NCBI RefSeq assembly: GCF_014467075.1
Contig: NZ_AP023027.1
Location: forward strand, 519,001-583,000
From: Anaerostipes caccae L1-92
GTDB lineage: Bacteria; Bacillota; Clostridia; Lachnospirales; Lachnospiraceae
Length of the DNA: 64,000 nt
Direction: 5' to 3'
The notes beneath the pieces are model-generated. The model was not told where the DNA came from, searched no databases, and worked only from the letters and a program-made list of their open reading frames with translations. This document shows positions 6,001-44,402 of this stretch, piece after piece. Within the stretch, counting starts at the first letter, position 1. Every line of letters begins with the position of its first letter. The position numbers and the translations under genes were made by a program.

Positions 6001-7236
6001 TATGCCTATGACAAGAATGGAAATGAGATCGGACAGACCAATAGTAAAACCGGAGAGATCCTTTACCGTACTTATGATGCGGAGAACCGGCTGACCGAAG
6101 TTTCTGTCAACAAAGATGGCAAAAATGCCATTGTGCAGCAGAACCGCTATAATGGAGACGGGCAGAGAATCCAGAGAGTGGAAGGAGATCAGACGACCAA
6201 CTACTATTATCAGGATGGAGTGGTCTCTTATACGACCAATGGAAAAGGAGATCAGACGTCTCAGGATCTTTTGGGAACAGACGGAAATATTATAGGAACC
6301 CAGAGGTATACAGGCAATGATGCTGCATACTATGTGTATAACAAGGATGTTCAGGGCAGTACGACCAATCTTCTGAAAGACGATGGAAAAGCGGATGTTT
6401 CTTACCGCTATGAAGACTTTGGAGAAACAACCAGTGTTGGAGAAAACACATCCGGAAATGAGACTTGTTATACTGGCGGACGATATGATGAGACGACGGG
6501 GTTTTATTATCTGAATGCACGGTATTACAATCCGGAGGACGGAAGGTTTTTGTCTGAGGATACTTATCGTGGGGAGACAAACGAGCCGGATACACAGCAT
6601 TTGTATGCGTATTGTGCGGATAATCCTGTGAATTATGTGGATCCTAGCGGACATAAGTTTTTAGGATATTGGAGTTCAAAACAACATTACTATGCATTTA
6701 ATCAAAATGCGCCGCAAAAGTATGCAGGATATAATGATTTTTATGATATGAATTCTTGGGCTGTAGGTGACTTGACTACAAGGAAGATTGAGACTTCACA
6801 TTGGCGTTTACAGTTTTGGAAAGGTATATATGGGCCACCATATGTACCAGCGGTAGCAAATGGATGTGAGATTGGTTTATACTATAGAAAATCAACCTGG
6901 AGCAAACACTGGAATTGTGCATATGACTCGAACAAAAGGTTAAGAATGAGAATGTCTTTATATGCAAATGGGAAAAAATTATTTACACGTGATAGTAAAA
7001 CATCGACTGACCAAGGAAAAGCATGGTGGTTAACAGGATTTACTCCTAGACCATATTTACCAAAAAAGAAGACATGGGGAAAAACTACGTTAAAAATGAC
7101 AGGTACATTGTGGTTTCCTTCAAGTGGAAAATACAGGAGTCAAATGAGGGATTTATCTAAAAAATTGGCTAAGGTGAAAAGTCTGAATGTAAAAGGGTCA
7201 TTAACGAGGAGGACATTTTCATGGAAAGGACGGTAG
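43..7236 (+). CDS. Secreted RHS/YD-repeat polymorphic toxin protein (WapA-like)
   Basis: This is a 2397-residue secreted protein. It has an N-terminal signal peptide (about residues 1-36), then a DNRLRE-type domain (about 330-500), fibronectin/Ig-like segments (about 505-830) and an RHS N-terminal segment near 845-950. A long array of YD repeats (Y-x-Y-D, about 1030-2150) follows, then the RHS core signature ending in DPSGH at 2200-2204. RHS shells of this kind enclose and release a toxic C-terminal domain acting on competitor cells. The last 193 residues (2205-2397) differ completely in style and are AT-rich; motifs such as WRLQFWKG, CEIGLYY and WWLTGF resemble DUF4474, an RHS-associated domain of unknown activity. 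A good site, AAAGGAG, precedes the ATG. The next gene is probably its immunity protein. The RHS assignment is secure; the tip activity is unknown. Confidence 0.95.
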   Translation: MKKLVKPAVCAALSFVLMFTSVQWSGMIAGSGDVKAAEPKAAQSKEVIDSESTKNSTTFRLSNGKKESVFYGQDVRYEDENGNLKDYDPTLVEIQDKTSEHGHNLKDYQYENKDGDKKQYLPKKLTESTPVLMEHDKYEISFAPITGEEESGIETQDRQKEKIEENAFSSINKLKRTKLQREEVLTAEDKKEELPVSVAYESEDKNCTFLYQSLDAGVKESVTLKEIPDSNQLKFRFYAKNLTAKKNIGDGGITFYDKESEDIIASLEAPSMNDDTKEAYSEKLSYDIEPIKDEKDTYELTLTLDEEYLKDKDRKYPITIDPTVTWKGSTDFWDVYVINGSYKNTNFYDSGVTAMMAGKASKGTYRTYLRFKDFTAKIKNKYVDTATLTMYETGDSTSGQTIEARRVTSNWSRPGLTWSNRPGYSTNYGSVKTTGTTHKARSINLTKYARECANGSITSYGVMLKNADETKKYGQFYSSRYSNASYRPKMSVTYYDGPTTPTSVSVTPQYMKKGQTLTAKWAGISSKSLNRAEYRVATYDPAKNAEVNANYRAYSGSTKLGTTGSGSASVADSKNWPEGCYKFVIRGVDNGGINGTGKGYIFYVDSTAPKINSMTIDAGDGKGGSEENPSSNMSPALKWNVTEKYLSKVEYKVGNGSYVNAGSAVSGQVSIPASNFKDAGTYQITMKVTDKAGYTAETSRSYYYIDNSQAADYKPVNAKLNNLYGKNMISWDKKASLPGSIYYEIYRGESADFTPDASNLVRAAVKDSYCADTRVGDGKDYYYKVRTVKLSKKGNVIGSSDYVTAGHKKQYAKSEYEQWLGSKDYRETMEFSTPNGNGTVDKAGGNLNYQAEDYAIPAGQLSMGLTRTYNSQSDKAGMLGNGWYDSYHKELYQVGANLVFQDSDGTYVTFEKQGDSYVSKESKDYKLSFDNVAAAKSVSQSPNMKAANQYLSESFTIESGILSHTTLKGCSYEASHNVSSGSSEGQTEQKTVTKLISYACTITAKDNTIYQFNNNGQLTAVKEPNDNFILYEYDSKGRLKTVTSNKIKTLTMKYFDGEENNADLLKEIVLPDGTKMEYTYSGSNLVKAVHSSADGSKSVAYEYGYDAKSFLNAIKDAKDVKDAKDNSYDITYENNRAVNVKKPNGEYQKLTYGDGKTTVSLHKAEDEKISEDSITYDKSNGKVLTSVNAAGNKTSYQYEDASNDLLCTGTTTKVYHQMVTDSGKVNFTSEEVTTKTQYDSNENVTMEKDETGQVTQTTYGTGAEANLPKTEVTKQGDKTVSDVSYSYDKSGNTIKETDSIAETKTVCDYDEDGDLILEEDYEEGELTSREETHYDEKDHIITEDSTVTQGNVKEESTTVLDPMGRETKSQDVNTTEITTTEYDFLGRQVKIQKELNGVVKTEEKEYNANGTLKLETSDTGVTTSYTYDENNRVEEAVEVSKDGITKTTKTDYGYADREIHTLSGMKSYQNLSVVTTTVNGKVQGETYTDGSGNTVREKSNGIYTDHVFTEDGKETASILLGTKDGADVKGKITLNLYDKNGKQTHTVQNPVIAGEDVSIDPEKSIVNQTSYDDKGNETAKTDGNGNTVAYTYDDQNRVTKVSQGDNSTSISYTMGTDGVNTTSITDAMGHENIEVTNAAGLTETTTSKGNLGESISTKFTYDTNGNKTKETYENGAYKTYHYDKKNRLTETNTYESPEAGSESGTRTLKTSYSYDGNDQLIEMVDYQVSGNTETAYRYTECEYDGLQRKTTYAELSQSEKPTADEIRSHAIKYAYDAEGKLTKVIYPTKKDGVRSLSYHYTSDGWLSVIKADVYKGSDAKEATVRTYAYDDYGKVTEIKDYRNLLSDGDKAVKKVYTYDTFDRVSKMVYTDLEHPDTVVESYAYSYDKNSNIIEKTQINNYPQKDEEKVNETKHYTYDSLGRLEKTVTTDHRKDDSKQTVTYTYDKVGNRLAEEKGDTKTTYDYNGLDQVTTSTTWKDGTAQENKQYAYDKNGNEIGQTNSKTGEILYRTYDAENRLTEVSVNKDGKNAIVQQNRYNGDGQRIQRVEGDQTTNYYYQDGVVSYTTNGKGDQTSQDLLGTDGNIIGTQRYTGNDAAYYVYNKDVQGSTTNLLKDDGKADVSYRYEDFGETTSVGENTSGNETCYTGGRYDETTGFYYLNARYYNPEDGRFLSEDTYRGETNEPDTQHLYAYCADNPVNYVDPSGHKFLGYWSSKQHYYAFNQNAPQKYAGYNDFYDMNSWAVGDLTTRKIETSHWRLQFWKGIYGPPYVPAVANGCEIGLYYRKSTWSKHWNCAYDSNKRLRMRMSLYANGKKLFTRDSKTSTDQGKAWWLTGFTPRPYLPKKKTWGKTTLKMTGTLWFPSSGKYRSQMRDLSKKLAKVKSLNVKGSLTRRTFSWKGR
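3383..3418 (+). repeat. Two tandem 18-bp units inside the RHS gene
   Basis: Two adjacent 18-bp copies, identical except for the last base, encode a charged lysine/aspartate stretch (DAKDVKDAKD) between YD repeats. Because the unit is a multiple of three, gain or loss of a copy keeps the reading frame. It looks like a slippage duplication. Confidence 0.7.
6655..7236 (+). other. Exchangeable C-terminal toxin tip of the RHS protein (DUF4474-like)
   Basis: This part of the RHS gene encodes residues 2205-2397, directly after the DPSGH core motif. Base composition drops to AT-rich at this point, while the preceding repeats are balanced in GC. Tryptophan- and glycine-rich motifs (WRLQFWKG, CEIGLYY, WWLTGF) recall DUF4474. 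No nuclease or deaminase catalytic motif was recognised. A sharp composition break at the core/tip border is the known mark of tip exchange in RHS and CDI toxins. Confidence 0.7.
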
Positions 7237-29353: not shown

Positions 29354-30424
29354 ATGAAAAAAGTTTTGATATATAAATTGATGAATATAAAGGCTATCCT
29401 TTTATTTACACTGTGTTTTTCTTTAATGGCTTGTAGTTCTCAAAAAAATGTAAGGAACAAAAATTATAATAAACAGTGGGCAATTTATAACTCTGGACAA
29501 ATTGTTAATGGAAAAAAGGGCAAACAGGGAATTGATATAAATATTCAAAAAACATGGAAAAAAACAAAAGGAGTTAAAAACATAATTGTTGCTGTTTTAG
29601 ATACAGGAATTGATAAAACAGATCCGAATATAAAAAAATCCATCTATAAAAATAAAAATGAAAAACTTGACGGGCGAGATAATGATCATAATGGATATAT
29701 TGACGATATATCAGGGTGGGATTTTTATCATAAAAATAATACAGTATATGATGATTATATTTCTGATGCACATGGAACATATATTGCAAATATTCTTGCT
29801 GGATCGCATCAGAAAGATTCATATTTTGGTGTGGCTCCAGGGATAACAATACTACCTGTTAAAATTTTGCATGGAGCAGATGGGAATCTTGAGGATATCC
29901 CGGAAGCTATAGACTATGCATACAATAGAGGAGCAAGAATTTTTAATTGTAGCTTTGATTTTGAAGCTAACAATAAGGCAATTTATAAAAAAATGAAAAA
30001 GTATTCAGATGCAGTTTTTGTTTGTGCAGGAGGAAAAGCAGGGGTCAATTTAGATAAATACCCAATATATCCGGCATGTTACCAGCTAAAAAATATTATA
30101 TCAGTTGGCGCAATAAATAGTAAAGGGGAATTATATAATGCTTCGGGATATGGGAAGATAATTGATATATATGCTCCTGGCGAAAATATTGAGGTGGAAA
30201 TTGGGAAGGGTGATCGTACTTTTGTCGACGGAACATCAGCTGCAACAGCTTATGTATCAGGAGCATTTGCGCTTTTAAAAAGTATTGATTCAAAAATAAG
30301 TAATGATGAAATAAAGGATATTATTATCAAGTATTCCTATAGTTTAGAAAATAAAAAAAAGGAGGGGATTGATATAAATATACTTAACGTTGATAAGGCA
30401 TCAGAAAAGATGAAAAGGAGGTGA
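29354..30424 (+). CDS. Subtilisin-family (S8) serine protease lipoprotein
   Basis: A 356-residue protease with a lipoprotein signal: a hydrophobic stretch ending LMACSS, Cys28 being the lipid site. The catalytic triad is complete: Asp83 in VLDTGID, His140 in DAHGTYI and Ser295 in DGTSAAT. The prodomain is very short, so it resembles fervidolysin- or lantibiotic-leader-type S8 proteases more than classical subtilisins. AAAGGAG precedes the ATG. The two following genes encode an anchored and a secreted protein and share the transcript; they may be substrates or partners. The family is confident, the role unknown. AT-rich codon use suggests acquisition. Confidence 0.93.
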   Translation: MKKVLIYKLMNIKAILLFTLCFSLMACSSQKNVRNKNYNKQWAIYNSGQIVNGKKGKQGIDINIQKTWKKTKGVKNIIVAVLDTGIDKTDPNIKKSIYKNKNEKLDGRDNDHNGYIDDISGWDFYHKNNTVYDDYISDAHGTYIANILAGSHQKDSYFGVAPGITILPVKILHGADGNLEDIPEAIDYAYNRGARIFNCSFDFEANNKAIYKKMKKYSDAVFVCAGGKAGVNLDKYPIYPACYQLKNIISVGAINSKGELYNASGYGKIIDIYAPGENIEVEIGKGDRTFVDGTSAATAYVSGAFALLKSIDSKISNDEIKDIIIKYSYSLENKKKEGIDINILNVDKASEKMKRR

Positions 30425-31946: not shown

Positions 31947-32041
31947 CGAAAAGGCCACCCAACTTTTTGACAGCAGTTATCTTTGCTGTTTAAACTGCTA
32001 GTAACCTTTACAAACACTAGACTTTCTGAAATTAAAAAAAG

Positions 32042-32114
32042 AGCGATAGACGGGACTCGAACCCGCGACCTCAACCTTGGCAAGGTTGCGTACTACCAAC
32101 TGTACTACTATCGC
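32042..32114 (-). tRNA. tRNA-Gly (anticodon GCC)
   Basis: A 73-nt gene on the minus strand with acceptor arms GCGATAG and CTATCGC, discriminator T and no encoded CCA. The anticodon arm CAACC-TTGCCAA-GGTTG gives GCC. A T-rich run follows the 3' end. The gene forms the right border of the AT-rich region 28200-32040. Confidence 0.93.
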
Positions 32115-32233: not shown

Positions 32234-32262
32234 TTGACAAAAAGATAAATATAAGTTAAAAT
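32234..32262 (+). promoter_or_regulatory. Promoter of the Tad-like pilus operon
   Basis: A consensus -35 TTGACA (32234-32239) and a -10 TAAAAT (32257-32262) are separated by 17 bases. Transcription would begin near 32269, leaving a leader of about 80 bases before the ATPase gene. Confidence 0.8.
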
Positions 32263-32351: not shown

Positions 32352-33389
32352 ATGCAGAAATTTGCAATCGAAGACAGGTATTTTGGGCCGCTGCTGCCTT
32401 TCATTCAGGACGATATGGTCACCGACGTTAACTGGAACGGAAAAGAGCTGATCGTTGACGACCTGGAGCGGGGCAGGCATACTGTTGCTGGAACAGAGAT
32501 TTCAGAAAGTTTTATCAGCCAGTTCAGCGCAAGAATAGCCAATGCAGTCTCTGCTCCGTTTAATAAATATGATCCTTTGGTGGAAGCAGAAGTAGATGGA
32601 CTGAGGATTTCCATTATACATGAAGATGTATGTGCCACCGGGCGGAGTATTTCTATCAGAAAGTCACCGGCACTTGTAAGGCTCAGCGAAGATAAAATTT
32701 TTAAAGAGAATTACTGCGGCAGAGAAATCCTGAATTTCCTGAAAAACTGCATTCTGGGACATATGAATATTGTGATTGCAGGTCAGGTAGGCAGCGGCAA
32801 AACAGAACTTTTGAAATATCTGACCAGGTTTATTCCGGACATGGAGAGAGTTATCACGATTGAGGACAGCTTAGAGATTCATTACCGGGAGATTAATCCG
32901 GGAAAAGACTGTGTGGCCATTGAGGTCAATGAAGATACTTTTGGCTATGTAGATGCCATTAAAGCATCTTTAAGACAGCTGCCTACGTGGATTCTTCTGT
33001 CGGAAGCCAGGGGCGAGGAAGTACAGCATTTAATACAGTCCCTTACCACGGGACACTATTCGCTGACAACCGTTCACACAGATGATGTGCGAAGGATACC
33101 GGAGAGGATGAAAAATATGGTGGATGATCCTATCGCATCGGAACGTATAGAGAGGGACGTCTATGGATTCGTTGACTTGGGGATCCTGATACGGAAGGAA
33201 CAGAGTCCGGATGGCAGAATTCGCCGTTACATTGATCAGATTGCCTGTTTCTATCTGGACAAGACCGGACAGAAAACAATACAGTTGATCTTAAAGGACC
33301 GGAGGATTATAAATAAAGAACTTCCGGAGAAATTAAAGAAGAAATTTTTGGTCAAAGATCCGTTCCGATGGGAGGGGAGTGAACCATGA
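32352..33389 (+). CDS. CpaF/TadA-type secretion and pilus ATPase
   Basis: A 345-residue hexameric ATPase of the type II/IV secretion class that powers pilus assembly. Walker A GQVGSGKT begins near residue 144, and ERVITIEDSLEIHY, the Asp/His boxes and TGHYSLTTVHTDD are typical. GAGGAAC precedes the ATG. It is shorter at the N-terminus than classical CpaF (over 400 residues). It is the first gene of the operon and overlaps the next by 4 bases. Confidence 0.92.
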   Translation: MQKFAIEDRYFGPLLPFIQDDMVTDVNWNGKELIVDDLERGRHTVAGTEISESFISQFSARIANAVSAPFNKYDPLVEAEVDGLRISIIHEDVCATGRSISIRKSPALVRLSEDKIFKENYCGREILNFLKNCILGHMNIVIAGQVGSGKTELLKYLTRFIPDMERVITIEDSLEIHYREINPGKDCVAIEVNEDTFGYVDAIKASLRQLPTWILLSEARGEEVQHLIQSLTTGHYSLTTVHTDDVRRIPERMKNMVDDPIASERIERDVYGFVDLGILIRKEQSPDGRIRRYIDQIACFYLDKTGQKTIQLILKDRRIINKELPEKLKKKFLVKDPFRWEGSEP

Positions 33390-34888
33390 GACAACATCAT
33401 AAACGAACAATTCTGACAACATTTCGGTACATCAAATATACAAATCTAAAAAAAGAGATTCGTGGCTATGGATACTCTTATTCATTTAAAAAATATCTCG
33501 CATCTTTACTTTTATCTTTCCTTGGAATTCTTTTAGCAGGAAAATTTTTTCATCTGCAAATACCTTATATCATAGGCCTGGGTCTGGCATATCTGTGTTT
33601 TTTTCCGATTATTATCATCCGGCAGTTTAAATATATGTATGAACAGCAGAGATTCAGGGATGTGGTGAATTATTTGGAGCAAATGATGTATTCTTTCAAA
33701 AAACAGCCTAAGATCATTGTGGCATTGGAGGAGACAAAACAGCTTTGTGAAGGCCGTATCCTGGAGCTTATCGATGAGGCAGAAAAAGCCATCAGCAGTC
33801 CGGGTGCAGTGGACGATTTATACCGGCACGCACTATCCTGTATCGAGCAGGAGTACCGCTGTGACCGGATGAAGATGCTGCATGACTATCTGGTCAAGGT
33901 GGAAAATCTGGGCGGTCAGTACCAAAGTACATTAAATATCATATTAGACGATGTGAAAGAATGGACAGAGCGGACATATCTCTTTCAGAAAGAGAGAAAA
34001 AGCATGAAATTTAAGATCGTACTATCTCTAACCGCATCTCTGGCAGTCGCGGGGACCACAGTTATGATGCTGGCCAGCGATGAGATGCTTGGAAAGGTGC
34101 TCAGGGGACCGCTCTATCAGAGAACGACGTTTTCTCTTTTGGTTTTATTTCTGATGTTATATCTGGGAGCACAAAAACTGCTCACAGGCTCGTGGCTGAA
34201 AGATACACTGGATGAAAATCCGGAACAAATCAAAAAAGATTTTAAGACAATGCGGGAGGAAAAGGACGGAAAACAGCCGTGGATCATTACTATACTGAGT
34301 TTTCCCGTTTTACTCCTGGGGTTTGACTGGCAGAATCTTTATATTATAGGGGCGGTAACAGCCCTGATAGCCGCAGCGTGGTTCACGCCGTCGTTAAAGA
34401 GAAAGAATGCCGGGGGAAGAATTCTAAAAGAGATCAATCAGAAGTTTCCATATTGGCTCAGGGGGATCGCACTGAGCCTTCAGACAGAAAATGTCTATGT
34501 TGCGATAAGGGATTCTCTTGATCAGGCACCTTATGTATTAAAGGAACAGATAGAGATACTTCTTCGTAACATTGATGAAGATCCCGAATCTATACTGCCG
34601 TATCAGAATTTTCTGTCGGAGTTTGATCTGCCGGAAATACAGTCTGCCTCCAGAATGCTGTATTCCCTTACCAACTGTGGGAAAGACGATTCCGAGGCAC
34701 AGATCAATACCTTGATTCACCGGAATAATGTATTGATGGACAAGGCAGAATGGCTTCAAAATGAGAATGATGTAGCAGGGATAGGAGCGTTGACGTTTGT
34801 GCCCATGATACTGGCAACTTTCAAGATGATCATGGACCTGGGATTGATTTTTGGAAGTTTCTTTACGCTTTGGACGAAGCTTCCGTAA
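33386..34888 (+). CDS. TadB/TadC-like type II secretion F-domain membrane protein
   Basis: A 500-residue inner-membrane platform protein. Two helices at about 37-80 precede a cytoplasmic helical domain (about 90-205), then two helices (about 210-270), a second cytoplasmic domain (about 345-465) with two further helices before it, and a final helix near 470-495. The layout resembles TadB and TadC joined in one chain, where other bacteria use two proteins of about 300 residues. It overlaps the ATPase gene by ATGA. Assignment rests on architecture and neighbourhood. Confidence 0.8.
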   Translation: MRQHHKRTILTTFRYIKYTNLKKEIRGYGYSYSFKKYLASLLLSFLGILLAGKFFHLQIPYIIGLGLAYLCFFPIIIIRQFKYMYEQQRFRDVVNYLEQMMYSFKKQPKIIVALEETKQLCEGRILELIDEAEKAISSPGAVDDLYRHALSCIEQEYRCDRMKMLHDYLVKVENLGGQYQSTLNIILDDVKEWTERTYLFQKERKSMKFKIVLSLTASLAVAGTTVMMLASDEMLGKVLRGPLYQRTTFSLLVLFLMLYLGAQKLLTGSWLKDTLDENPEQIKKDFKTMREEKDGKQPWIITILSFPVLLLGFDWQNLYIIGAVTALIAAAWFTPSLKRKNAGGRILKEINQKFPYWLRGIALSLQTENVYVAIRDSLDQAPYVLKEQIEILLRNIDEDPESILPYQNFLSEFDLPEIQSASRMLYSLTNCGKDDSEAQINTLIHRNNVLMDKAEWLQNENDVAGIGALTFVPMILATFKMIMDLGLIFGSFFTLWTKLP

Positions 34889-34903
34889 TAGACAGGAGGA
34901 TAT

Positions 34904-35005
34904 ATGCAGGATTTTTTTGAGGAACTGGGAGCGGTTTTATTTTTGCTGCTTACAGGCATTGGTATTTGTGCAGTCTACATTCATTTTGTTCAGCTGATCA
35001 GCTGA
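34904..35005 (+). CDS. Tiny membrane peptide of the pilus operon
   Basis: A 33-residue peptide: a short acidic N-terminus (MQDFFEELG) and one hydrophobic helix. CAGGAGGA lies just before the ATG, 15 bases after the preceding gene, and the next gene follows in 15 bases. The spacing and strong ribosome site indicate a real product of the operon. It resembles the neighbouring pilin-like peptides in size but lacks the YG motif. Confidence 0.6.
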   Translation: MQDFFEELGAVLFLLLTGIGICAVYIHFVQLIS

Positions 35006-35020
35006 AAGGAGGTGACACCT

Positions 35021-35167
35021 ATGAAGACAATCATTGACGAATACGGCAGCATCATCTTGTGTGTGATCGCGGGAACCGCGGTGCTTGCGTTTCTGGGAGT
35101 ACTATTATCTGCTGCTGCCCGGTTTGGAACGGCCTTTTTTGACTCTATCAGCTGCGCATTGTGTTAG
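35021..35167 (+). CDS. Flp-like minimal pilin, leaderless (48 residues)
   Basis: A 48-residue peptide with AAAGGAGGTG before the ATG. MKTIIDEYGSIILCVIAG contains the [DE]-[x]-Y-G-x-I-I motif that corresponds to the mature start of Flp pilins (A-T-A-I-E-Y-G-L-I-A). Only six residues precede the Glu-Tyr-Gly, so there is no leader to be cut by a prepilin peptidase. One hydrophobic helix and a short tail with two Cys follow. It is one of three such proteins in the operon (35177 and 37038 are the others). Confidence 0.7.
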   Translation: MKTIIDEYGSIILCVIAGTAVLAFLGVLLSAAARFGTAFFDSISCALC

Positions 35168-35176
35168 GAGGATGAG

Positions 35177-35662
35177 GTGAAGCAGACCATTGAGAATTAC
35201 GGAAGGATTATTGTGTTATTAGCAGCAGCTTTTGGAGCAGTTTTCCTCATACGAAATACAGTCTATTCACAGCTGAAAGCAAACGGCGTGATACAGGATA
35301 CCAATCATATCTCATCCAATGAATTTTTTCAAAAGCAGGGCAGACCAAAGTTGTCTGGAGTCCGTGGGGAAGACGGCACGGCAAAAAGACTTGTCATTAG
35401 AAAAGAAGAAAAGCTGAATCCGAGAGAGCTTGTAAAGGCAGAGGATAAAAAAGACGGTGACTTAACAGAAAAGATCAAGATTTTTGTTGTCACGAATGAG
35501 GGAGGGAAAGAAGTGAGATCTCTGTTTGAGTCAGAATATCTGGATACGAGTCATGATAAAGAATTCATTCTTTTATATACGGTTAAAAACTCCATAGGGT
35601 TAGTTTCGGAAGGAAGAATTAAGATACTGGTAAAGAATTATGGTGAAAATCACAGTGAATGA
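35177..35662 (+). CDS. Pilin-like protein with a C-terminal Ig-like domain
   Basis: A 161-residue protein starting at GTG with GGAGGA upstream. The N-terminus, KQTIENYGRIIVLLAAAFG, repeats the E-x-Y-G-x-I-I motif of the neighbouring mini-pilins. The exported part (about 60-161) contains KAEDKKDGDLTEKIKIFV and FILLYTVKNSIGLVSEGRI, a DUF5011/HYR-like beta-sandwich also present in the 1379-residue surface protein of the operon. It may be an adhesive or tip pilin. Its 3' end overlaps the CPBP gene by 23 bases. Confidence 0.7.
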   Translation: MKQTIENYGRIIVLLAAAFGAVFLIRNTVYSQLKANGVIQDTNHISSNEFFQKQGRPKLSGVRGEDGTAKRLVIRKEEKLNPRELVKAEDKKDGDLTEKIKIFVVTNEGGKEVRSLFESEYLDTSHDKEFILLYTVKNSIGLVSEGRIKILVKNYGENHSE

Positions 35663-36329
35663 AGATGTGAAGCGGTTCCTTATATATTATACAATTTACA
35701 GAATCTGCGGACAGCTGTGCAGCCTGATCGGAATTCCCGGTCTGTATCCAAATCTGATCAGCGGCCTGTGCCTGATCCTTCTTTGCAGCCCCTTTTTGGC
35801 AAAGGATCAAAAGAAAGGATTCATAGTCCGCAGAGAGCTGATCTTATTTACAATATCTTTCTTTTTCCTCACGCAGTACATCTCTGTTTATCTAACTGAT
35901 ATTTTTCATAACAGCAAATTTATAATGAATCAAGAGGCTGAGAAAAGCCCGATCTTAGTAAACGCAGCTGCGGCAGGGATTGTTGGACCGGCAGCCGAGG
36001 AACTTTTATTCCGCAGATTCTTGTATGAAGGACTAAAACCAATGGGAAAAGTAAAGTCGTCTCTGATTTCCAGCGTTATTTTTGGGCTGTGTCACAGACA
36101 GGTGATCCAGGGAATCTATGCATCACTGTGGGGGAATGTCTTTTGTTTTGTGTATGAAAAAAATCAAAGCTTAAAAGCACCTTTTTTAGTACATATGATC
36201 AGCAATATGCTGTCTTTTTCACCGATTCTTTGGATCAGTCTGAATCATGTTTGTTTTACCGTCTGTATTACTTTTATTTCCGCATGGATCGTCTGCCTGG
36301 CGATTAAGAAGAAAGGGGAATGTTTATGA
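35640..36329 (+). CDS. CPBP family intramembrane metalloprotease
   Basis: A 229-residue polytopic protein (about six helices). The CPBP (Rce1-like) motifs are intact: EELLFRR (Glu120, Glu121, Arg125), FGLCHRQ as motif 2 and HMISN as motif 3. Such proteases cleave substrates within the membrane and can mature or inactivate small peptides. It stands exactly where a prepilin peptidase (TadV) would be expected, and no TadV gene is visible in the operon. The family is confident; processing of the pilins is inference. Confidence 0.88.
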   Translation: MVKITVNEDVKRFLIYYTIYRICGQLCSLIGIPGLYPNLISGLCLILLCSPFLAKDQKKGFIVRRELILFTISFFFLTQYISVYLTDIFHNSKFIMNQEAEKSPILVNAAAAGIVGPAAEELLFRRFLYEGLKPMGKVKSSLISSVIFGLCHRQVIQGIYASLWGNVFCFVYEKNQSLKAPFLVHMISNMLSFSPILWISLNHVCFTVCITFISAWIVCLAIKKKGECL

Positions 36330-36655
36330 AGATGCCTGTCGAATTAGTCGTCAGTGTGATTCTGCTCTGCCTCGGTGCCTTTATAATGGCTTCATATAAC
36401 GGAGCGGCACTGGAGGAGGCCGGAGCGAGAGCTGTTCATGAGGATATGATAGGGAGAATTGAGGCCAGTGGTTTTGACCCTTTGACTATTAAAGAGTGTG
36501 AAAAAGAGGCGTCTGAAAAAGGATACAGTCTTTCCATAAAAAATGACGGCTTTTATGATGATAAGCCAAAGTATAAAGTAGTGCTGGCTTATCATCTGAG
36601 GATAAAACTGCTGGGAATTGCCAGCCGGCAGGAGATTGAAGGGTATGCATTATGA
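36326..36655 (+). CDS. Minor pilin-like (TadE-type) protein, copy 1
   Basis: A 109-residue protein; the ATG at 36326 overlaps the CPBP stop and has AAAGGGG eight bases upstream. One N-terminal helix (residues 4-24) is followed by an exported part with EASGFDPLTIKECEKEASEKG and a closing strand pattern. It is homologous to the next protein (VEQCRKEAKEDG in the same place). A hydrophobic start without a leader and a small globular part suggest a pseudopilin of the machine. Confidence 0.7.
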   Translation: MKMPVELVVSVILLCLGAFIMASYNGAALEEAGARAVHEDMIGRIEASGFDPLTIKECEKEASEKGYSLSIKNDGFYDDKPKYKVVLAYHLRIKLLGIASRQEIEGYAL

Positions 36656-36667
36656 GGAGGATAAAAA

Positions 36668-37021
36668 ATGAAGCTGGCTGTAGAGACATTTGTATGCTGT
36701 TTTATTATAGCCGCAGGAATGTTTTTAAATGTCGTTTATTGTGCCAATACGAAGGTGGTCTCCAACGCAAAGCAGTACCAGTCGGCCGCAGTCCATAAGA
36801 TGGATGCGGCAGGTTTTTCAAAAGCAGTGGTGGAGCAGTGCCGGAAGGAGGCAAAGGAGGACGGGTATGTTTCTTTGGATGTATTAAAGGAACAGGCTGA
36901 TGAGAACAGGGCCCGCTCTCTTGTAACATTGAAGTATAAATTATATGTACCTCTGCTGCGGATAGAAAAGGTTTGTCAGATCAGAAGCTATGCGAACAGT
37001 GTAACAGAGGATGAAGAATGA
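36668..37021 (+). CDS. Minor pilin-like (TadE-type) protein, copy 2
   Basis: A 117-residue paralogue of the preceding protein: an N-terminal helix (4-24), then AAVHKMDAAGFSKAVVEQCRKEA matching its IEASGFDPLTIKECEKEA. GAGGA precedes the ATG, which is 12 bases after the previous stop. It ends in an acidic tail. It is probably a second subunit of a small heteromeric pseudopilin complex. Confidence 0.7.
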   Translation: MKLAVETFVCCFIIAAGMFLNVVYCANTKVVSNAKQYQSAAVHKMDAAGFSKAVVEQCRKEAKEDGYVSLDVLKEQADENRARSLVTLKYKLYVPLLRIEKVCQIRSYANSVTEDEE

Positions 37022-37037
37022 CTGAAAGGAGTTATTT

Positions 37038-37214
37038 ATGAAAAGTTTTTTAGAAGATTACGGATTGATTATTGTAGCGGTGATCGTAGTGCTGGCTTTA
37101 TGTGTTTTTGCCAAAGGTACTTTTGTGACGCAGTTTCAAAAAGCGCTGACGGATACCATTTCAACATTTTTTGAGAAGTCAGGTGCAAACAGCTCGTTTA
37201 TTCTGCTGGGATGA
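37038..37214 (+). CDS. Flp-like minimal pilin, leaderless (58 residues)
   Basis: A 58-residue protein with AAAGGAG before the ATG. MKSFLEDYGLIIVAVIVV carries the E-x-Y-G-L-I motif of Flp pilins only five residues from the start. A hydrophobic helix of about 20 residues is followed by a helical tail (QFQKALTDTISTFFEKSG), like the Flp rod subunit. It is the closest candidate for the major pilin here. Confidence 0.75.
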   Translation: MKSFLEDYGLIIVAVIVVLALCVFAKGTFVTQFQKALTDTISTFFEKSGANSSFILLG

Positions 37215-37247
37215 CACGGCGGGGCATAAAGCAGAGGAGGAGCCATT

Positions 37248-37625
37248 ATGAAAGGGGCAGTCACAGGAATTATTTTACTTGTCATCTTAATCTACTCTGT
37301 GTTTATAACACAAAATATTGCAGGCCTCACAACCAGAAAAACAGAACTTACGATGGATGTCTCCAATGCGGTTGAACAGACTTTGGACAATATGAAGGAG
37401 GAACAGTATGAATCCAGAGAGCAGATGGCAGAGATATTTGTCCGGGATTTAAAGACACAGATTACATCAGATGCCGACATAGAAGTGGAGATTATCGGAG
37501 CCGACCATATCCACGGCCTGCTGGACGTCAATGTCCGTGAGACCTTCCTTACTTCAGACGGAAAGAAAAAAACGATCGAGGTCAGAAAAACAGCAGTGCT
37601 GGAACAGTTTCAGGAAGAAGCATAA
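37248..37625 (+). CDS. Pilus-operon membrane-anchored protein (TadE-like)
   Basis: A 125-residue protein with AGGAGG before the ATG. A hydrophobic N-terminal helix (residues 5-22) is followed by a helical, acidic region (MDVSNAVEQTLDNMKEEQY) and a beta part ending in a Gln/Glu-rich tail. The shape, N-terminal anchor and small exported domain, matches TadE-like minor pilins. It sits between the 58-residue pilin and the large surface protein. Confidence 0.7.
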   Translation: MKGAVTGIILLVILIYSVFITQNIAGLTTRKTELTMDVSNAVEQTLDNMKEEQYESREQMAEIFVRDLKTQITSDADIEVEIIGADHIHGLLDVNVRETFLTSDGKKKTIEVRKTAVLEQFQEEA

Positions 37626-37639
37626 GGGGGCATGTCAGA

Positions 37640-40600
37640 ATGAAAAAATGGGGAAAAAGAATCATTTCCGGTGTGATTGCAGCAAGCCTGCTGACGGCAG
37701 CTGCGATATCGGGATCAGAACAGGGCACAGGCACAGTGGCTTCGGTCGTTCAGGCCGGCACAGAGACGAGCTTTATGGGAAAACTGCTTGAGGGTGGATA
37801 CATCGATGTATTCACCTCCGGGACTCAAGAAGAACAGAATAAATTTTATGACGGGTTAAGTCCGCAGCAGCAGTCTGTGTTTTTGGAAGTGACAAACTGT
37901 CAGATTACAAGGGAACTTATAAAAAGCGAACGTTCAAAGGAGGAGCTGGAACAATTTTTTGACCGGCTGCAGCCTTATTTTTTGATACTGAAGAAGGGAA
38001 ATCAGGAGAAGCCGGATGATGAGATCGTCATAGAGTGTATAAATCAGATTGAGGGAACAGATTATCATTCTTCAGAGCAATATATAAAACAGCTGGTTTC
38101 AGGAAAAAAGGATCATTATTTGGAATTTTACAACGCCCTGAAACTGGTGAAGGACGGGAAACTGGAAATTGAGAGCGCAGTGGATGATTTCTATAAAGAA
38201 CTTGGCTTTCTCAAGAAAGATAGGGTTCCAGCAAACTCAGCAGAAGTATCCCGGCAGTCAGTCCAGGTACAGAAAAAAGCGGCGGCAAAAGCTGTTTCAG
38301 ACGGATATTCCAACTTTAAAGCCGTGAGTTCTTTGAAAGCTTTGAAAGATGCTGTGGCTTCCGTAAAGAAAGGTGAGAAAATAGCCGTCCGTGTGGACAA
38401 GGGTTTTAATGTGACATCAGTGATCAGGACGAACGGCCGGCATGTGAAGATTTACGCGGACGGTGAGAGCGGACATAATCTCAACAGGACTGCAGGATAT
38501 AAAGATGTCATGTTGGAAGTAAATGGAGGATCACTCACATTAGGGGCTTATGACGGAGATGGAAGAGCAAAAAATAATCTGTACATCAACGGAAAAAATA
38601 TCGCTGCGTCAGCTCCTTTGATAGAAGTTACATCAGGGCACCTGTATCTAAATAAATACAGCCGTATCATAGACGGATATTTTTTGGCGGACTTTGCGGG
38701 AGGGGCAGGAATTGCACTGAATTCCGGTACATCCTGTTATATGTTTGGCGGCAGGATCGACAACTGCCGGGCAAAGAGCAGCAAAGACGTATCTTCCGGT
38801 TCACCGAAATCTTCTCACGGAGGAGGTGTCCTGGTCGGCAATGGTTCTTCTTTTTACATGTTTGCGGGATCAATAGAACACTGTCAGGCGATTCATGGCG
38901 GAGGCATTATGAACTATGGAACCCTGAGACTGTACGGAGGTGCGATTTCAGACTGTGCAGCGTCCAACCAAAAGAAGGATGCTCTCGGAGGAGCGGTTAA
39001 AGTGCAGGGAGCGATCGAAACGGATGGAAAAGTAAGCTCTACAAAAGGTGACTTGGGCGTCTGGAAGTACAGGAGATCCGCTGCATGGATTGTGAATGGA
39101 AAAGATGGATATCAGCAGGTAACCACCACGGGTGTGGTATTAAAAAACAATCAGGCCGATGCAGGCGGAGCCATATGTTTGAACAACGGTTCAAACGGAG
39201 CCATCCAAGACTGCAGCATTAATGGAAATCACAGCACCGGAAACGGAGCAGGCATCTGTCTGTCAAACGGCAGTTATAAAAAGGGCGCCGCTTTGGAACT
39301 AAAGATGGGAGCCGTGATTCACGGAAATGAAAGCAAAGGTTATGGAGGAGGTTTTTACTGTGCGGATTCTGTGAAAGGCTCTTTAAGCGGAGGAACTATG
39401 TATGATAACTCGGCAAAATATGGCGCAGGCATCTATCACGAGGCAGAATTCCGCATGAGTGGAGGAACTGTAAGAAATAATCATTCCGGCAATTCCGGGG
39501 GCGGAATCTATGCAAAGGGAAAACTTTCTATGACCGGAGGAGAGATATCTGCCAATACAGCCGCCACATACGGGGGAGGAGCCATTTTAAAAACTGCCGG
39601 AGGTTCTGTAAGCGGAGGAAGTATCAAAGGCAATTCCGCCTCTGCCAATGGTGGGGGACTTCAGATAGACGGAACAGTCTCACTTTCAAACGCATCGGTA
39701 AGTTCTAACAGCGCTTCCGGGAAGGGCGGAGGTATCTCAGTAAGTTCATCCGGCACATGTAATTTAAGCAGCGGCAATGTCAGCGGAAACACCGCAAAGG
39801 CGGGAGGCGGGGGTATTTACATTGACGGCACCTGCAAGGCAAACGGGAGCAGCTTTACTGGAAATCAATCCTCCGGAGACGGAGGAGCTGTTTACATAGC
39901 CAGCGGTACTTTTACAACGTTTCAGGCGAATCAGGCAGTAAACATCCAGGGAAACAGTGCGTCCGGAAATGGCTCAGGTATTTATAACAGAAATATTACG
40001 GTTCTGAACAACAACGCCCATATCTTGAACAATCATTGCAAAAATGGTACACAACGGGGTATTTTTCATCAAGGAAGTCTGTTTTCAATAGAAGGAAATA
40101 CGGAGATACAACAGGAAATTTATCTTGCAAAGGACCGGTTTGTTACGGCTTCCAACCGATACTTTTCCAACAGCAATTCATTGAAGGCCAAAATTTCTCT
40201 GGATACTGCCAATATACGAAACGGCTATGCGGTAGTAAAAGGGAATGTATCAAATTCTGCGGACGGTAATTACAAGACAGGAGAGGCATTGCTGAATAAT
40301 CAGTCTGCGGGCGGAAGATTTGTGTATGCAGGCAGCGGATATGTCATGAGACCGGGAAATTTAAAGAAATCATCTTCTGGCTGTGCTCCATTCAGCATTG
40401 TTCTGAGTCAGGCATATCAGATTCGCTATGATAAAAATTCAAAAGAGGAGGTCATGAACATGCCGACGGCAGCAGTTAAGTATTGGGAGGAGGACATAAG
40501 GCTGTCGGCGCTGACACCTGCCAGTGGGTCGGGCGCGTTTGTGGCATGGAATACGAAAGCAGATGGGACAGGAGACGGGTATCAGCCGGGGAATGTTTAT

Positions 40601-41779
40601 ACGGCAAATGCGGATGCGACTCTTTTTGCTCTTTGGCCCCATTACAGAGTGGAGTATCTGCCTGGAATTCGGAGTGCCGCTGGCACGACGGACAGCCAGG
40701 AACAAAACAAATCTGAGGATATACTGCTGAGGAAAAACGGGTTCCGGTCATCAGAAGGGAAGTTTGTAGGCTGGAAACAGGATATCAGCAGTGCCCGCAA
40801 AAGAATGGAATTAGAACCGGTGGGATATAAAGAATTAAAAGAAGAGCGGGAAAAGGGTAAATTAAATCATATATTAGACTTTGCAGAAAGCAATAAAAAA
40901 GTCAATTCATCTGAAAATTTGGATAATATAAATAGCTTATTGGATGTTGAAGATATATTTTTTATGGAAGGCCAATGGGACAGTAAACCAGATATTATTT
41001 TGAACGATAAAAAGACTTTTTTAGAGAATGAAAAAATAAAGAAGAATGATTTATTAAAAGTTGTAAAGGGTTGTTATGATGAAGAAGATGGAGAATTGAC
41101 AAAAAAAGTACAGATTATAAAACTAGATTACGCAAAAAGTATGAAAGGATACCGGCCGGAAACCCAAAATTTTTCTGGAGGAATGAATGATACAGATGTA
41201 ATGGACACTTATTTTATGAAGCTTGAAAAAGATGAGACAGTAGAAGTCAAAGTTACTTTTCAAGCTGAAGACAGCGTTGGAAATGTTGCAGAAAAAGAAG
41301 GCACGGTATGTGTAACTTATAACAATCCTCCCAAATTACATTCACAGAATCTTGCATTTTATCAAAAAGATCTAGACAACAATCCACAGACCATTCTTAA
41401 AGAAATATTTGAAAACTATCAGGTAGAAGACATAGAAGATGACAAAAAAGGCCTGAAAGTACCAGTGTCTGTTATTGATCCAATACCGCTGCAAATTGAA
41501 AAGTTAAATTCGGTAGGTGAGCATAAAATTGTTTATCAGGCAATAGATTCTTTGGGGAAGAAAACAAAACTTGATTCGATAGTATATATCGCCGAGAACA
41601 ATCCTTTTAAAGACTCATATAAATATAATGTAAGATTTATAAATAAGAAATATTTGTATACCTTGAAAGAGTCGAGCAAATGGAAGAAAGACGAGGAATT
41701 AAATGCTCAGCTCACAAGTCAGCTGGAAAAAACAAAGGAAGATGCTGTGTTAAAATATGAATTTGAAATAAAGAAATAA
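37640..41779 (+). CDS. Large beta-helix surface protein of the pilus operon
   Basis: A 1379-residue exported protein. A signal peptide (about 1-35) and a helical N-terminal domain (about 40-215) are followed by a right-handed beta-helix region (about 230-900) with many NGGGIY/GGAI-type turns of the Pmp/pectate-lyase style. Next comes an InlB-B-like unit (about 935-1010, AFVAWNTKADGTGDGY) and two HYR/DUF5011-like domains (about 1120-1350). No LPxTG or other wall anchor is present at the C-terminus. AGGGGG precedes the ATG. Position at the end of the operon suggests an adhesin or tip protein carried by the pilus; alternatively it is simply secreted. From about 40800 the base composition becomes AT-rich. 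Confidence 0.85.
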   Translation: MKKWGKRIISGVIAASLLTAAAISGSEQGTGTVASVVQAGTETSFMGKLLEGGYIDVFTSGTQEEQNKFYDGLSPQQQSVFLEVTNCQITRELIKSERSKEELEQFFDRLQPYFLILKKGNQEKPDDEIVIECINQIEGTDYHSSEQYIKQLVSGKKDHYLEFYNALKLVKDGKLEIESAVDDFYKELGFLKKDRVPANSAEVSRQSVQVQKKAAAKAVSDGYSNFKAVSSLKALKDAVASVKKGEKIAVRVDKGFNVTSVIRTNGRHVKIYADGESGHNLNRTAGYKDVMLEVNGGSLTLGAYDGDGRAKNNLYINGKNIAASAPLIEVTSGHLYLNKYSRIIDGYFLADFAGGAGIALNSGTSCYMFGGRIDNCRAKSSKDVSSGSPKSSHGGGVLVGNGSSFYMFAGSIEHCQAIHGGGIMNYGTLRLYGGAISDCAASNQKKDALGGAVKVQGAIETDGKVSSTKGDLGVWKYRRSAAWIVNGKDGYQQVTTTGVVLKNNQADAGGAICLNNGSNGAIQDCSINGNHSTGNGAGICLSNGSYKKGAALELKMGAVIHGNESKGYGGGFYCADSVKGSLSGGTMYDNSAKYGAGIYHEAEFRMSGGTVRNNHSGNSGGGIYAKGKLSMTGGEISANTAATYGGGAILKTAGGSVSGGSIKGNSASANGGGLQIDGTVSLSNASVSSNSASGKGGGISVSSSGTCNLSSGNVSGNTAKAGGGGIYIDGTCKANGSSFTGNQSSGDGGAVYIASGTFTTFQANQAVNIQGNSASGNGSGIYNRNITVLNNNAHILNNHCKNGTQRGIFHQGSLFSIEGNTEIQQEIYLAKDRFVTASNRYFSNSNSLKAKISLDTANIRNGYAVVKGNVSNSADGNYKTGEALLNNQSAGGRFVYAGSGYVMRPGNLKKSSSGCAPFSIVLSQAYQIRYDKNSKEEVMNMPTAAVKYWEEDIRLSALTPASGSGAFVAWNTKADGTGDGYQPGNVYTANADATLFALWPHYRVEYLPGIRSAAGTTDSQEQNKSEDILLRKNGFRSSEGKFVGWKQDISSARKRMELEPVGYKELKEEREKGKLNHILDFAESNKKVNSSENLDNINSLLDVEDIFFMEGQWDSKPDIILNDKKTFLENEKIKKNDLLKVVKGCYDEEDGELTKKVQIIKLDYAKSMKGYRPETQNFSGGMNDTDVMDTYFMKLEKDETVEVKVTFQAEDSVGNVAEKEGTVCVTYNNPPKLHSQNLAFYQKDLDNNPQTILKEIFENYQVEDIEDDKKGLKVPVSVIDPIPLQIEKLNSVGEHKIVYQAIDSLGKKTKLDSIVYIAENNPFKDSYKYNVRFINKKYLYTLKESSKWKKDEELNAQLTSQLEKTKEDAVLKYEFEIKK

Positions 41780-41915: not shown

Positions 41916-44402
41916 ATGAAAAAAGAGGTTAAAATTATATTAGTATCTTGTTTATTTGTAATCGTGAATTTTAGCATTAGAAGCGGAACGACAATTCATG
42001 GGGAAAGTTTTATTGGGCAGACTTTTAAAGCTGGCAGTTTTTCATATGAAGTTATTTCAAAAAATGAAGTTTTGGTCTATAAGTATGACCATCAGGAGCC
42101 GGATACAATGGAAGTGGTTTCGTCGGTGGAATACCAAGGGAAAAAGTACAATGTTACAAAGTTTCATTATGATCATTCGGATGCGATAACTAAGAAGATA
42201 GTAATTCTAAGTGGTGTAAAAGAAGTGATTATAAATCCTGACGGAGTACCCGGCTATGAATATCCAAATCTGGAGGAACTCATTCTCCCAGATACTTTGG
42301 AGTACATCAACCCCGGCTTTTCTTTTACTATGACCAATTTAAACTCCATCCAGCTGTCCGATAAAAACAAATATTATAAAGTGGAAGATAATGTTCTGTT
42401 CAGCAAGAATGGTACTGACCTGATTGCCTTTCCAAGCGGAGATGACAGGATATCTTACCGCATTCCGAATGGCGTCCGGACAATAAAGAAAGAAGCCTTT
42501 GCGTCCAATCAAAATTTACAGGATGTTTTAATTCCTGTTTCTTTAACAGAGTTAGAGCCGTGGACATTTGCCGGTTCCCACATTCAGCGATTAGATCTTT
42601 CCCATGTAAAAAAGGCTGGGAGAGGAACGTTTGAATTCTGCCATAACTTAAAAGAAATAAAACTTGGAAGAGAAACGGTTCTAAATGGAGGGCAGTTTTA
42701 TGAAAACCGTTCACTGAAAGATATTTCCGTGGAGGAAGGAAATCCGAAGCTATGGTCAGAAGACGGTGTGCTGTACGGCCGTTCCGGTGATGATAAGACA
42801 TTGGTCTGTTATCCATCGGCAAAAGAAGAATTAAGCTATGCTGTTTCTCCCGGTACTAACTGCATTGAAGACAGCGCATTTCATATGTGCCGTCTGGATC
42901 AGGTGTTCCTGCCGCCGAGTGTACAGAAGATCAGCAGTTCTGCATTTAATTATGGAAACGACGGGAAAGCTGAAAAGCCAATCCAAATTTATTTATGCGG
43001 GGACAGGCTGCCGGAGATAAAGAAGGCAGCTTTTACCGACTTAGCTTCCGGAAGTGTAATCTATTTAAAAAACCAGGAACTGAAAAATCAGTTTGACTTA
43101 GGAAATCAGAAAAACCGGTATATTGATCAGCAGGATAAGGAGTCAGTGATCCAAGTTTCAGGTATGGAGCAGCAGCCGGCTGAAGATATCATATTGGATA
43201 GTGAGTCGGTTTCTCTGGACATGGGGAAGGATGGAAGACAGGTAAGCCGTTTGCTGGAAATTTCGCTGTTTCCTCTTTCATCCACGGATAAGATCATAGT
43301 TTCGGGAAGTGACCATAGAATTTTAACGGTAAGCGATCTGGGGAGGATTACTGCAGTTTCACCGGGGACTGCTTTCGTTACAGTAAAGGCAGGGAACGTG
43401 AGGAAAGAGTGCCGCGTGACTGTGTATGGCCCTCTGGGGAATTCAGATGATATCCCAAAGCAGTTTTATACAGGGGCAGAAATACGTCCGGAACCGGTTG
43501 TGAGAAATCATAACGGCCAGGTGCTGAAGCGTGGAAATGATTATACAGTGGAGTATAAAAATAATAAAAATCCCGGCAGGGCAGAAGTGCTGATAGAAGG
43601 TATCGGCTGCTTTCAGGGAAGTATAAAGACATCTTTTGATATACGGATCAAGGGGAATGATGTTTCCGGAGCAAAAGTTGTCTATCCGCAAAGGTATTAC
43701 TATTATGAGGGAAAACCAGTCACGCCGAAACCATCGGTGAGCCTGAATGGAAGACATCTGGAAGAGGGAAGAGACTACTGTATAGAGTACATGGGGAACA
43801 ATGGCATCGGCTTTGGCTGTGTATGTCTGACCGGGATCAATGATTACTATGGTCAGAATTTTTCTTATTACCAGATTATACGGAGAAAAGACAACAATAA
43901 AAAATACGAAAAAATCAGCTTTGTCTCTCAGCCTAAAAACAGTGTATATACCGGGAAATCAATCTTCAGGACAGTCAGAGTAAAAAGCGGCAATCGGGTT
44001 TTAAAGTTAAACAAAGATTATACGGTGAAGTATACTGCAAATAAAAACTGCGGAAAAGCCAGGATGGAAGTCATAGGAAAAGGGGGTTATACAGGAAAGA
44101 TCAATAGGTATTTTGTAATTGTTCCAAAGAAAGCACGGATCAGGAAAATAAAAGCCGGGAAAAAGAAGGCAAAAGTTTATATCAGGAAAAGTCCCGGCAA
44201 GCCAAGCGGTTATCAAATCTGCTGGTCAGCAGGAAAAAACTTTTCTAAATCAAAGTCGGTATCTACCGCCGGAACAGTGCGTTGGATGAGAAGACTGAAA
44301 CGAAAAAAATATTACTGCATAAAGGTACGGGCATATAAGACGATAAATGGAAAGAAATATTTTGGAAGTTACAGCGGGATAAAAAGAGTGAAGATAAAAT
44401 AA
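41916..44402 (+). CDS. BspA-type leucine-rich repeat surface protein
   Basis: An 828-residue secreted protein with a signal peptide (about 1-29). LRR_5 (BspA/TpLRR) units fill about 60-390 (for example LEELILPDTLEYI, IPNGVRTIKKEAF, VFLPPSVQKISSSAF). A Big_2-like Ig domain spans about 425-505, and three repeats of the type PVVRNHNGQVLKRGNDYTV..Y.NN fill 510-740. The C-terminal part resembles an FN3 unit (GYQICWSAGKNF). Such proteins bind host or microbial surfaces. No LPxTG motif was seen. It lies directly after the pilus locus and may be co-used in adhesion. Confidence 0.88.
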   Translation: MKKEVKIILVSCLFVIVNFSIRSGTTIHGESFIGQTFKAGSFSYEVISKNEVLVYKYDHQEPDTMEVVSSVEYQGKKYNVTKFHYDHSDAITKKIVILSGVKEVIINPDGVPGYEYPNLEELILPDTLEYINPGFSFTMTNLNSIQLSDKNKYYKVEDNVLFSKNGTDLIAFPSGDDRISYRIPNGVRTIKKEAFASNQNLQDVLIPVSLTELEPWTFAGSHIQRLDLSHVKKAGRGTFEFCHNLKEIKLGRETVLNGGQFYENRSLKDISVEEGNPKLWSEDGVLYGRSGDDKTLVCYPSAKEELSYAVSPGTNCIEDSAFHMCRLDQVFLPPSVQKISSSAFNYGNDGKAEKPIQIYLCGDRLPEIKKAAFTDLASGSVIYLKNQELKNQFDLGNQKNRYIDQQDKESVIQVSGMEQQPAEDIILDSESVSLDMGKDGRQVSRLLEISLFPLSSTDKIIVSGSDHRILTVSDLGRITAVSPGTAFVTVKAGNVRKECRVTVYGPLGNSDDIPKQFYTGAEIRPEPVVRNHNGQVLKRGNDYTVEYKNNKNPGRAEVLIEGIGCFQGSIKTSFDIRIKGNDVSGAKVVYPQRYYYYEGKPVTPKPSVSLNGRHLEEGRDYCIEYMGNNGIGFGCVCLTGINDYYGQNFSYYQIIRRKDNNKKYEKISFVSQPKNSVYTGKSIFRTVRVKSGNRVLKLNKDYTVKYTANKNCGKARMEVIGKGGYTGKINRYFVIVPKKARIRKIKAGKKKAKVYIRKSPGKPSGYQICWSAGKNFSKSKSVSTAGTVRWMRRLKRKKYYCIKVRAYKTINGKKYFGSYSGIKRVKIK

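Follow-up and report, generated by a model that had tools for sequence, protein, structure and literature searches.

The Anaerostipes caccae L1-92 operon analyzed here raises the question of whether a Tad-like pilus can be assembled from subunits that carry no leader, without the help of a prepilin peptidase. It lies in a stretch of 64,000 nucleotides (the window, whose coordinates are used throughout), and all of its genes are on the plus strand. The analysis confirmed the operon as genuine, intact and conserved. A promoter-like site precedes it (32234-32262, plus strand), matching 11 of 12 consensus positions; this is a consensus match alone, in a region where the scan found 28 such sites against 21.6 expected. 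A tRNA-Gly (GCC) gene is located just upstream on the minus strand (32041-32114), and a few genes further up there is a subtilase-family (S8) protein with a lipoprotein-like start by eye (29354-30424). A BspA-type leucine-rich-repeat protein is encoded directly downstream (41916-44402). The window also harbors a 2397-aa RHS-repeat protein with DUF6531, CBM96 and DUF4474 (43-7236).

The first two genes encode a TadA/VirB11-like assembly ATPase of 345 aa (32352-33389) and a fused platform of 500 aa with T2SF-type domains between membrane helices (33386-34888), and the initial annotation had placed both correctly. The ATPase matches PF00437 at 6.1e-26, and its best solved relatives by profile are GspE-type, VirB11 and CpaF proteins, with CpaF at 3.7e-29; these matches bear out the TadA-like character assigned to it earlier. 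Against NCBIfam, TadA gave 104 bits (cut-off 373) and the best match was VirB11, at 120 bits (cut-off 250). The Walker A residues are invariant in the family. In a midpoint-rooted tree that contains one long row, built with other T2SSE ATPases from the same or related genomes (8 genomes), the ATPases of 20 operon loci formed one group with 100/100 support, apart from the 22 other T2SSE ATPases. The ATPase of the canonical Flp1-like Tad locus of this genome falls in another group of the tree. The platform had likewise been called a TadB/TadC-like fusion, and this stands. A T2SF fold covers its first domain (residues ~88-210), the model predicts a second, similar helical half, and each half has weak matches to single frames (about 250-330 aa) elsewhere in the Clostridia. 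PF00482 was detected in 3 of 23 members of the platform family, and the hhalign match to one local TadB/TadC-type pair was weak. Judging by the modelled fold, the TadB and TadC roles would be filled by one chain.

Four mini-proteins are encoded in the operon, ranging from 33 to 161 aa with the Ig-headed one included. Three had been described before, and the one overlooked is a mini-pilin candidate of 33 aa (MQDFFEELGAVLF; 34904-35005), with a ribosome site and an in-frame stop 4 codons upstream. The others are a mini-pilin candidate of 48 aa (MKTIIDEYGSIIL; 35021-35167) with an 8-base Shine-Dalgarno match, an Ig-headed pilin candidate of 161 aa (MKQTIENYGRIIV plus an Ig-like domain; 35177-35662) and a probable major mini-pilin of 58 aa (MKSFLEDYGLIIV; 37038-37214), which aligns with the 49-65 aa pilin whose gene precedes the ATPase gene at other loci. 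With its strong Shine-Dalgarno match, 35021 is most likely the start of the 48-aa protein, rather than the GTG at 35012. As first noted, three proteins have the motif [DE]-x-Y-G-x-I-I near the start, preceded by exactly five residues (MKTII-DEYGSII, MKQTI-ENYGRII and MKSFL-EDYGLII). In two other loci (L047 and L128), a 56-aa major mini-pilin is present in two identical tandem copies upstream of the ATPase gene; L047, like L136, is a locus of Lachnoclostridium phytofermentans.

The remaining genes may encode minor subunits and an adhesin. A CPBP/Rce1-like intramembrane protease (35640-36329; PF02517, 2e-18) was found by tblastn in the window alone among 103 operon loci; the closest loci among those listed (L070-L072) have the small genes in identical order, with the CPBP gene missing. 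Two proteins of 109 aa (MKMPVELVV; 36326-36655) and 117 aa (MKLAVETFV; 36668-37021, in-frame stop 1 codon upstream) are candidate TadE-like minor pilins by shape and position. Both belong to family alignment A4, which holds 41 of 72 TadE-like proteins, while A5 has 34 rows from a larger set. TadE/TadF Pfam families are absent from the 25 listed of 35 weak families for the 41 members, and a TadE-like candidate gave no hhalign match to a local 131-aa protein. C58, present in the protein at 36326-36655, is invariant in 41/41 aligned members, and a G-Y is nearly invariant. The further small membrane protein of 125 aa (MKGAVTGII; 37248-37625; D family) has no Glu near the N-terminus and is a possible tip adaptor. 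Finally, the large secreted protein of 1379 aa (37640-41779) has an ordinary Sec-type start by eye and TIGR01376 repeats (20.7 bits, cut-off 15), and is a candidate displayed adhesin. Many of the loci listed have a large ORF after the small genes, and six of nine such proteins picked from them and scanned have ChW, beta-helix, InlB/Listeria-Bacteroides or thioester domains; L070 and L071 have no large same-strand gene directly downstream. In L059 (4751-7513) the last small gene encodes a fusion of 921 aa whose large ectodomain contains a Listeria-Bacteroides repeat, a hint that the small protein and the adhesin may cooperate. Adhesin display or co-secretion is the likeliest purpose of the operon.

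The same operon was found in other Lachnospiraceae, where the initial annotation had proposed to look for it. Its platform is present in 22 of 150 genomes of the family, own genome counted. Beyond the own genome, 398 genomes of the phylum gave partial platform matches in 2, and 291 genomes of the class gave 1 full-length and 12 partial matches, with few candidates scored per genome in both searches. Of the 80 best named ATPase loci, 78 have the platform gene next to the ATPase gene; their titles name, among others, Anaerostipes, Lactonifactor, Robinsoniella, Faecalicatena, Roseburia, Acetitomaculum, Lachnoclostridium and Clostridium tyrobutyricum. Seven of the named loci are duplicates of unnamed ones, and L132 and L147 end before the platform. 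In all 94 non-duplicate loci, mostly from Lachnospiraceae, ATPase and platform genes are adjacent on one strand, and a motif-free count gave at least one short hydrophobic gene in 87/94, at least two in 59/94 and at least three in 32/94. The 120 listed of 816 database relatives of the mini-pilin profile have no Pfam label. No report of the operon, or of a peptidase-free filament, was present among the literature matches listed (open-licence, preprints excluded).

The start of these proteins follows a strict pattern. The mini-pilin classes begin, as does the Ig-pilin, with a sequence close to M-K-x-[IF]-x-[EQ]-[EQ]-Y-G. Gly is residue 9 in 168 of 171 mini-pilins, picked by a loose motif that permitted Gly at residues 7-10, and an acid is found at residue 6 or 7 in 160/171. 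When short hydrophobic ORFs were collected motif-free, 164/183 had Gly9 (a few have Ala or Ser instead) and 132/183 had Tyr8. With Gly fixed at residue 9 in both sets, the pattern is not due to chance. Among the best 120 of the 816 database relatives, 105 have Gly9 and the other 15 have a Met exactly 8 residues before the Gly, so that we read these as probable over-long start calls. In the window, each of the seven pilin-like genes has a ribosome site and an in-frame stop 1-6 codons upstream of its start, and therefore no leader is hidden upstream. Residues 2-9 of the mini-pilins are more conserved than residues 10-24 (2.32 vs 1.14 bits in the set chosen for the Y-G motif; 2.11 vs 1.14 when repeated motif-free). 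In canonical pilins the order is reversed, with 1.76 bits in the leader and 2.32 in the mature part.

These canonical Flp1-like pilins, 18 from the same genomes, have leaders of 10 to 23 residues, their starts being chosen by ribosome site. They came from 29 loci, of which 19 were parsed and 18 kept after removal of one spurious case (a 3-residue 'leader' from TTG); in L170 the leader was counted as 10, not from an internal ATG. Ig-pilins numbered 66; ten other proteins and two near copies were removed for alignment A3, and 54 fitting a pattern were used for composition and conservation counts. The mini-pilins match neither Flp pilin model (PF04964, PF16982) and have no curated match, and one touches a conjugal pilin model of NCBIfam at E 0.036. 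PF04964 has no match in the genome, and the sole PF16982 match is the canonical locus at 3.32 Mb.

A search with tblastn (three queries, E up to 0.01) found no A24 prepilin peptidase at any of 103 operon stretches, made up of the window plus 102 loci of 3.6-17 kb. The claim that no such gene is visible thus holds for the operon. The proposed genome search for a TadV had a divided outcome, with none in the operon and three A24 genes outside it, one each in a type IVa-like, the canonical Tad and a third Tad-like locus. The third (G000:C1:207000-224000), possibly and by our guess on a mobile element, encodes a 135-aa A24 peptidase adjoining a DUF6133 protein that resembles a prepilin with a long leader (KAEG/FVDTA). 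A24 genes were present in 21/21 and 50/50 operon-bearing genomes in two checks, the latter covering 50 of 70 genomes initially selected by their named loci (one of them L132, in which the platform is not seen), and in 149/150 genomes of the family; among 72 genome entries checked, no operon genome without A24 was found. With three A24 genes in this genome and A24 in 149/150 family genomes, cleavage in trans is possible. In Synechocystis, mutations in a pilin reportedly suppress the loss of the peptidase.

The best reading, to which we assign a probability of about 0.57, is that the mini-pilins are born mature, without leader cleavage. The fibre is predicted from its genes, and the model that we infer builds on what was observed, namely the order and starts of the genes, the families and modelled folds of the proteins, and their conservation. 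The TadA-like ATPase would power the fused TadB/TadC-like platform, which would pull single-helix mini-pilins out of the membrane and stack them into a thin filament. Subunits would be translated with a functional N-terminus, Met1-Lys2 and the E/D-Y-G cap forming the mature start, and would be oriented with the N-terminus inside and the C-terminus outside; no prepilin peptidase step would be required. As minor subunits the filament would contain the Ig-headed pilin, both TadE-like proteins and the further small protein, and the large secreted protein would be a displayed or co-secreted adhesin. That the whole filament is free of prepilin processing, with major and minor subunits born mature and the initiator-Met region as assembly cap, has in our view slightly better than even odds. 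The initial annotation had proposed assembly without leader cleavage; there is indeed no room for an upstream leader, and absence of all cleavage is favoured with moderate confidence. It had overlooked that the conserved stretch at the N-terminus closes with Gly at position nine and may in its entirety be a 9-residue leader. By definition a prepilin has an N-terminal class III signal and loses its leader by cleavage (PMC10191384), and published class III leaders have 6-26 aa and end in Gly (PMC4471445).

The start M-K-x-[IF]-x-E-E-Y-G, at nine residues with a nearly invariant final Gly (exceptions Ala or Ser), fits that range, and a TadV/PilD of another system might cut after Gly9 in trans. 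The three A24 genes of the genome agree with this, as does the suggestion that MSH loci lacking a peptidase gene may borrow one (PMC6668835). In these genomes several canonical leaders have KEFLxEEDG as their last residues, resembling the mini-pilin start, and hhalign against a local Flp1-like pilin puts G9 at the -1 site, as does a second hhalign comparison. With the all-mini profile, HMM alignments brought G9 to the cut site for 16 of the 18 canonical pilins, 9 of them directly and 7 by offset; with the major-pilin profile they did so for 2 of 18, and the remaining registers were mixed. The mature product of such a cut would be a bare helix of ~24-50 residues without Glu5. On the other hand, the best solved relatives of the mini-pilin profile are mature Caulobacter PilA (E 0.065) and a Flp pilin (E 0.45, tied with the conjugation pilin TraM), weak matches above usual significance that align E7-Y8-G9 onto E5-Y6-G7 of the mature Tad pilins, so that the mini-pilin residues are shifted by two positions away from the start. 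For the Tad pilus of Caulobacter, the Glu-Tyr pair forms the hydrogen-bond core and is needed for assembly, not for processing (PMC11067988), and a cut after G9 would remove this pair. It would also leave an acid at +5 in 13/171 mini-pilins vs 18/18 canonical pilins, and a charged +1 in 41/171 mini-pilins and 33/54 Ig-pilins vs 0/18. Moreover, the length of nine is fixed, and cleavage would discard the most conserved segment. Proteins of the TadE-like (72) and last-gene (48) sets are hydrophobic from about residue 3 and therefore lack a hydrophilic leader. Their residues leave some room for short leaders, with a small residue at position 10 in 40/72 TadE-like proteins (bulky hydrophobic in 26/72) and Gly or Ser at position 7 in about three quarters of the last-gene set. 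On balance we regard a short leader cut in trans as possible but less likely than a native start.

Two further explanations concern the kind of machine. A short membrane-anchored pseudopilus or piston might export or display the large secreted protein, with no long pilus; mini-pilins as short as 33 aa, the large ORFs following in many of the loci listed and the L059 fusion are consistent with this. We consider it unlikely, given that the Sec-type start of the large protein would make a pseudopilus unnecessary for exit from a one-membrane cell and that L070 and L071 have no large gene at that place. That the mini-pilins are conjugation-type (VirB2/TrbC-like) and belong to a degenerate type IV secretion system would be in line with VirB11 as best NCBIfam match of the ATPase, and with the conjugal pilin and TraM matches mentioned above. 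These NCBIfam matches nevertheless fall short of the cut-off, the platform that partners the ATPase has a T2SF-type fold, and Pfam detected no VirB4, VirD4 or relaxase among the ten operon proteins scanned. We know of no VirB-like type IV secretion system with a T2SF-type platform, and this reading is disfavoured as very improbable.

If mini-pilins born mature do form the filament, leader cleavage would be dispensable for pilin extraction and assembly, and the purpose of the leader would become testable. It would be the first peptidase-independent type IV filament shown, in gut Lachnospiraceae and alongside leader-bearing Tad systems, and several bacteria of gut and rumen would gain a surface fibre so far unrecognised. 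An ordinary Flp1-like pilin is also encoded in each of the 22 operon genomes checked, this one among them, and provides a built-in control.

Among known systems, type IV filaments are presumed to have had the prepilin peptidase as one of their ancestral parts, and in published models TadV may lie apart from its locus (PMC6668835). The MSH pilus resembles the operon in having a locus without its own prepilin peptidase, but its authors suggest use of the peptidase of a co-occurring system (PMC6668835). In the Myxococcus Kil system KilP, the major pilin, still polymerises when the local peptidase KilA is absent; there, however, the authors deduce that KilP is processed by a different peptidase, and the Tip pilins have predicted cleavage sites (PMC12075869). 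Nanoarchaeota were found in a 2014 survey to have type IV prepilins with no prepilin peptidase detected, although this is a survey remark alone and leaderless pilins are not mentioned in it (PMC4471445). This genome's canonical Flp1-like Tad locus (L063, G000:C1 ~3.32 Mb) shares the superfamily and a small one-helix pilin (MKEFMKDESG/MGVVEV), and differs in the leader of that pilin, which is followed by Glu5, in its own A24 peptidase and in its separate platform genes. Compared with Tad/Flp (T4c) systems such as Caulobacter CpaF-PilA, the operon has its platform fused in a single chain, no TadV, TadZ or secretin among its proteins by Pfam, several different mini-pilins outside the Flp_Fap and Flp1_like models, and no leader upstream of the motif. 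Both have a TadA/CpaF-like ATPase and TadB/TadC-type domains in one locus, and single-helix pilins with a Glu-Tyr-Gly start. The operon is a conserved, unlabelled Tad-like clade, a variant and not a new kind of machine.
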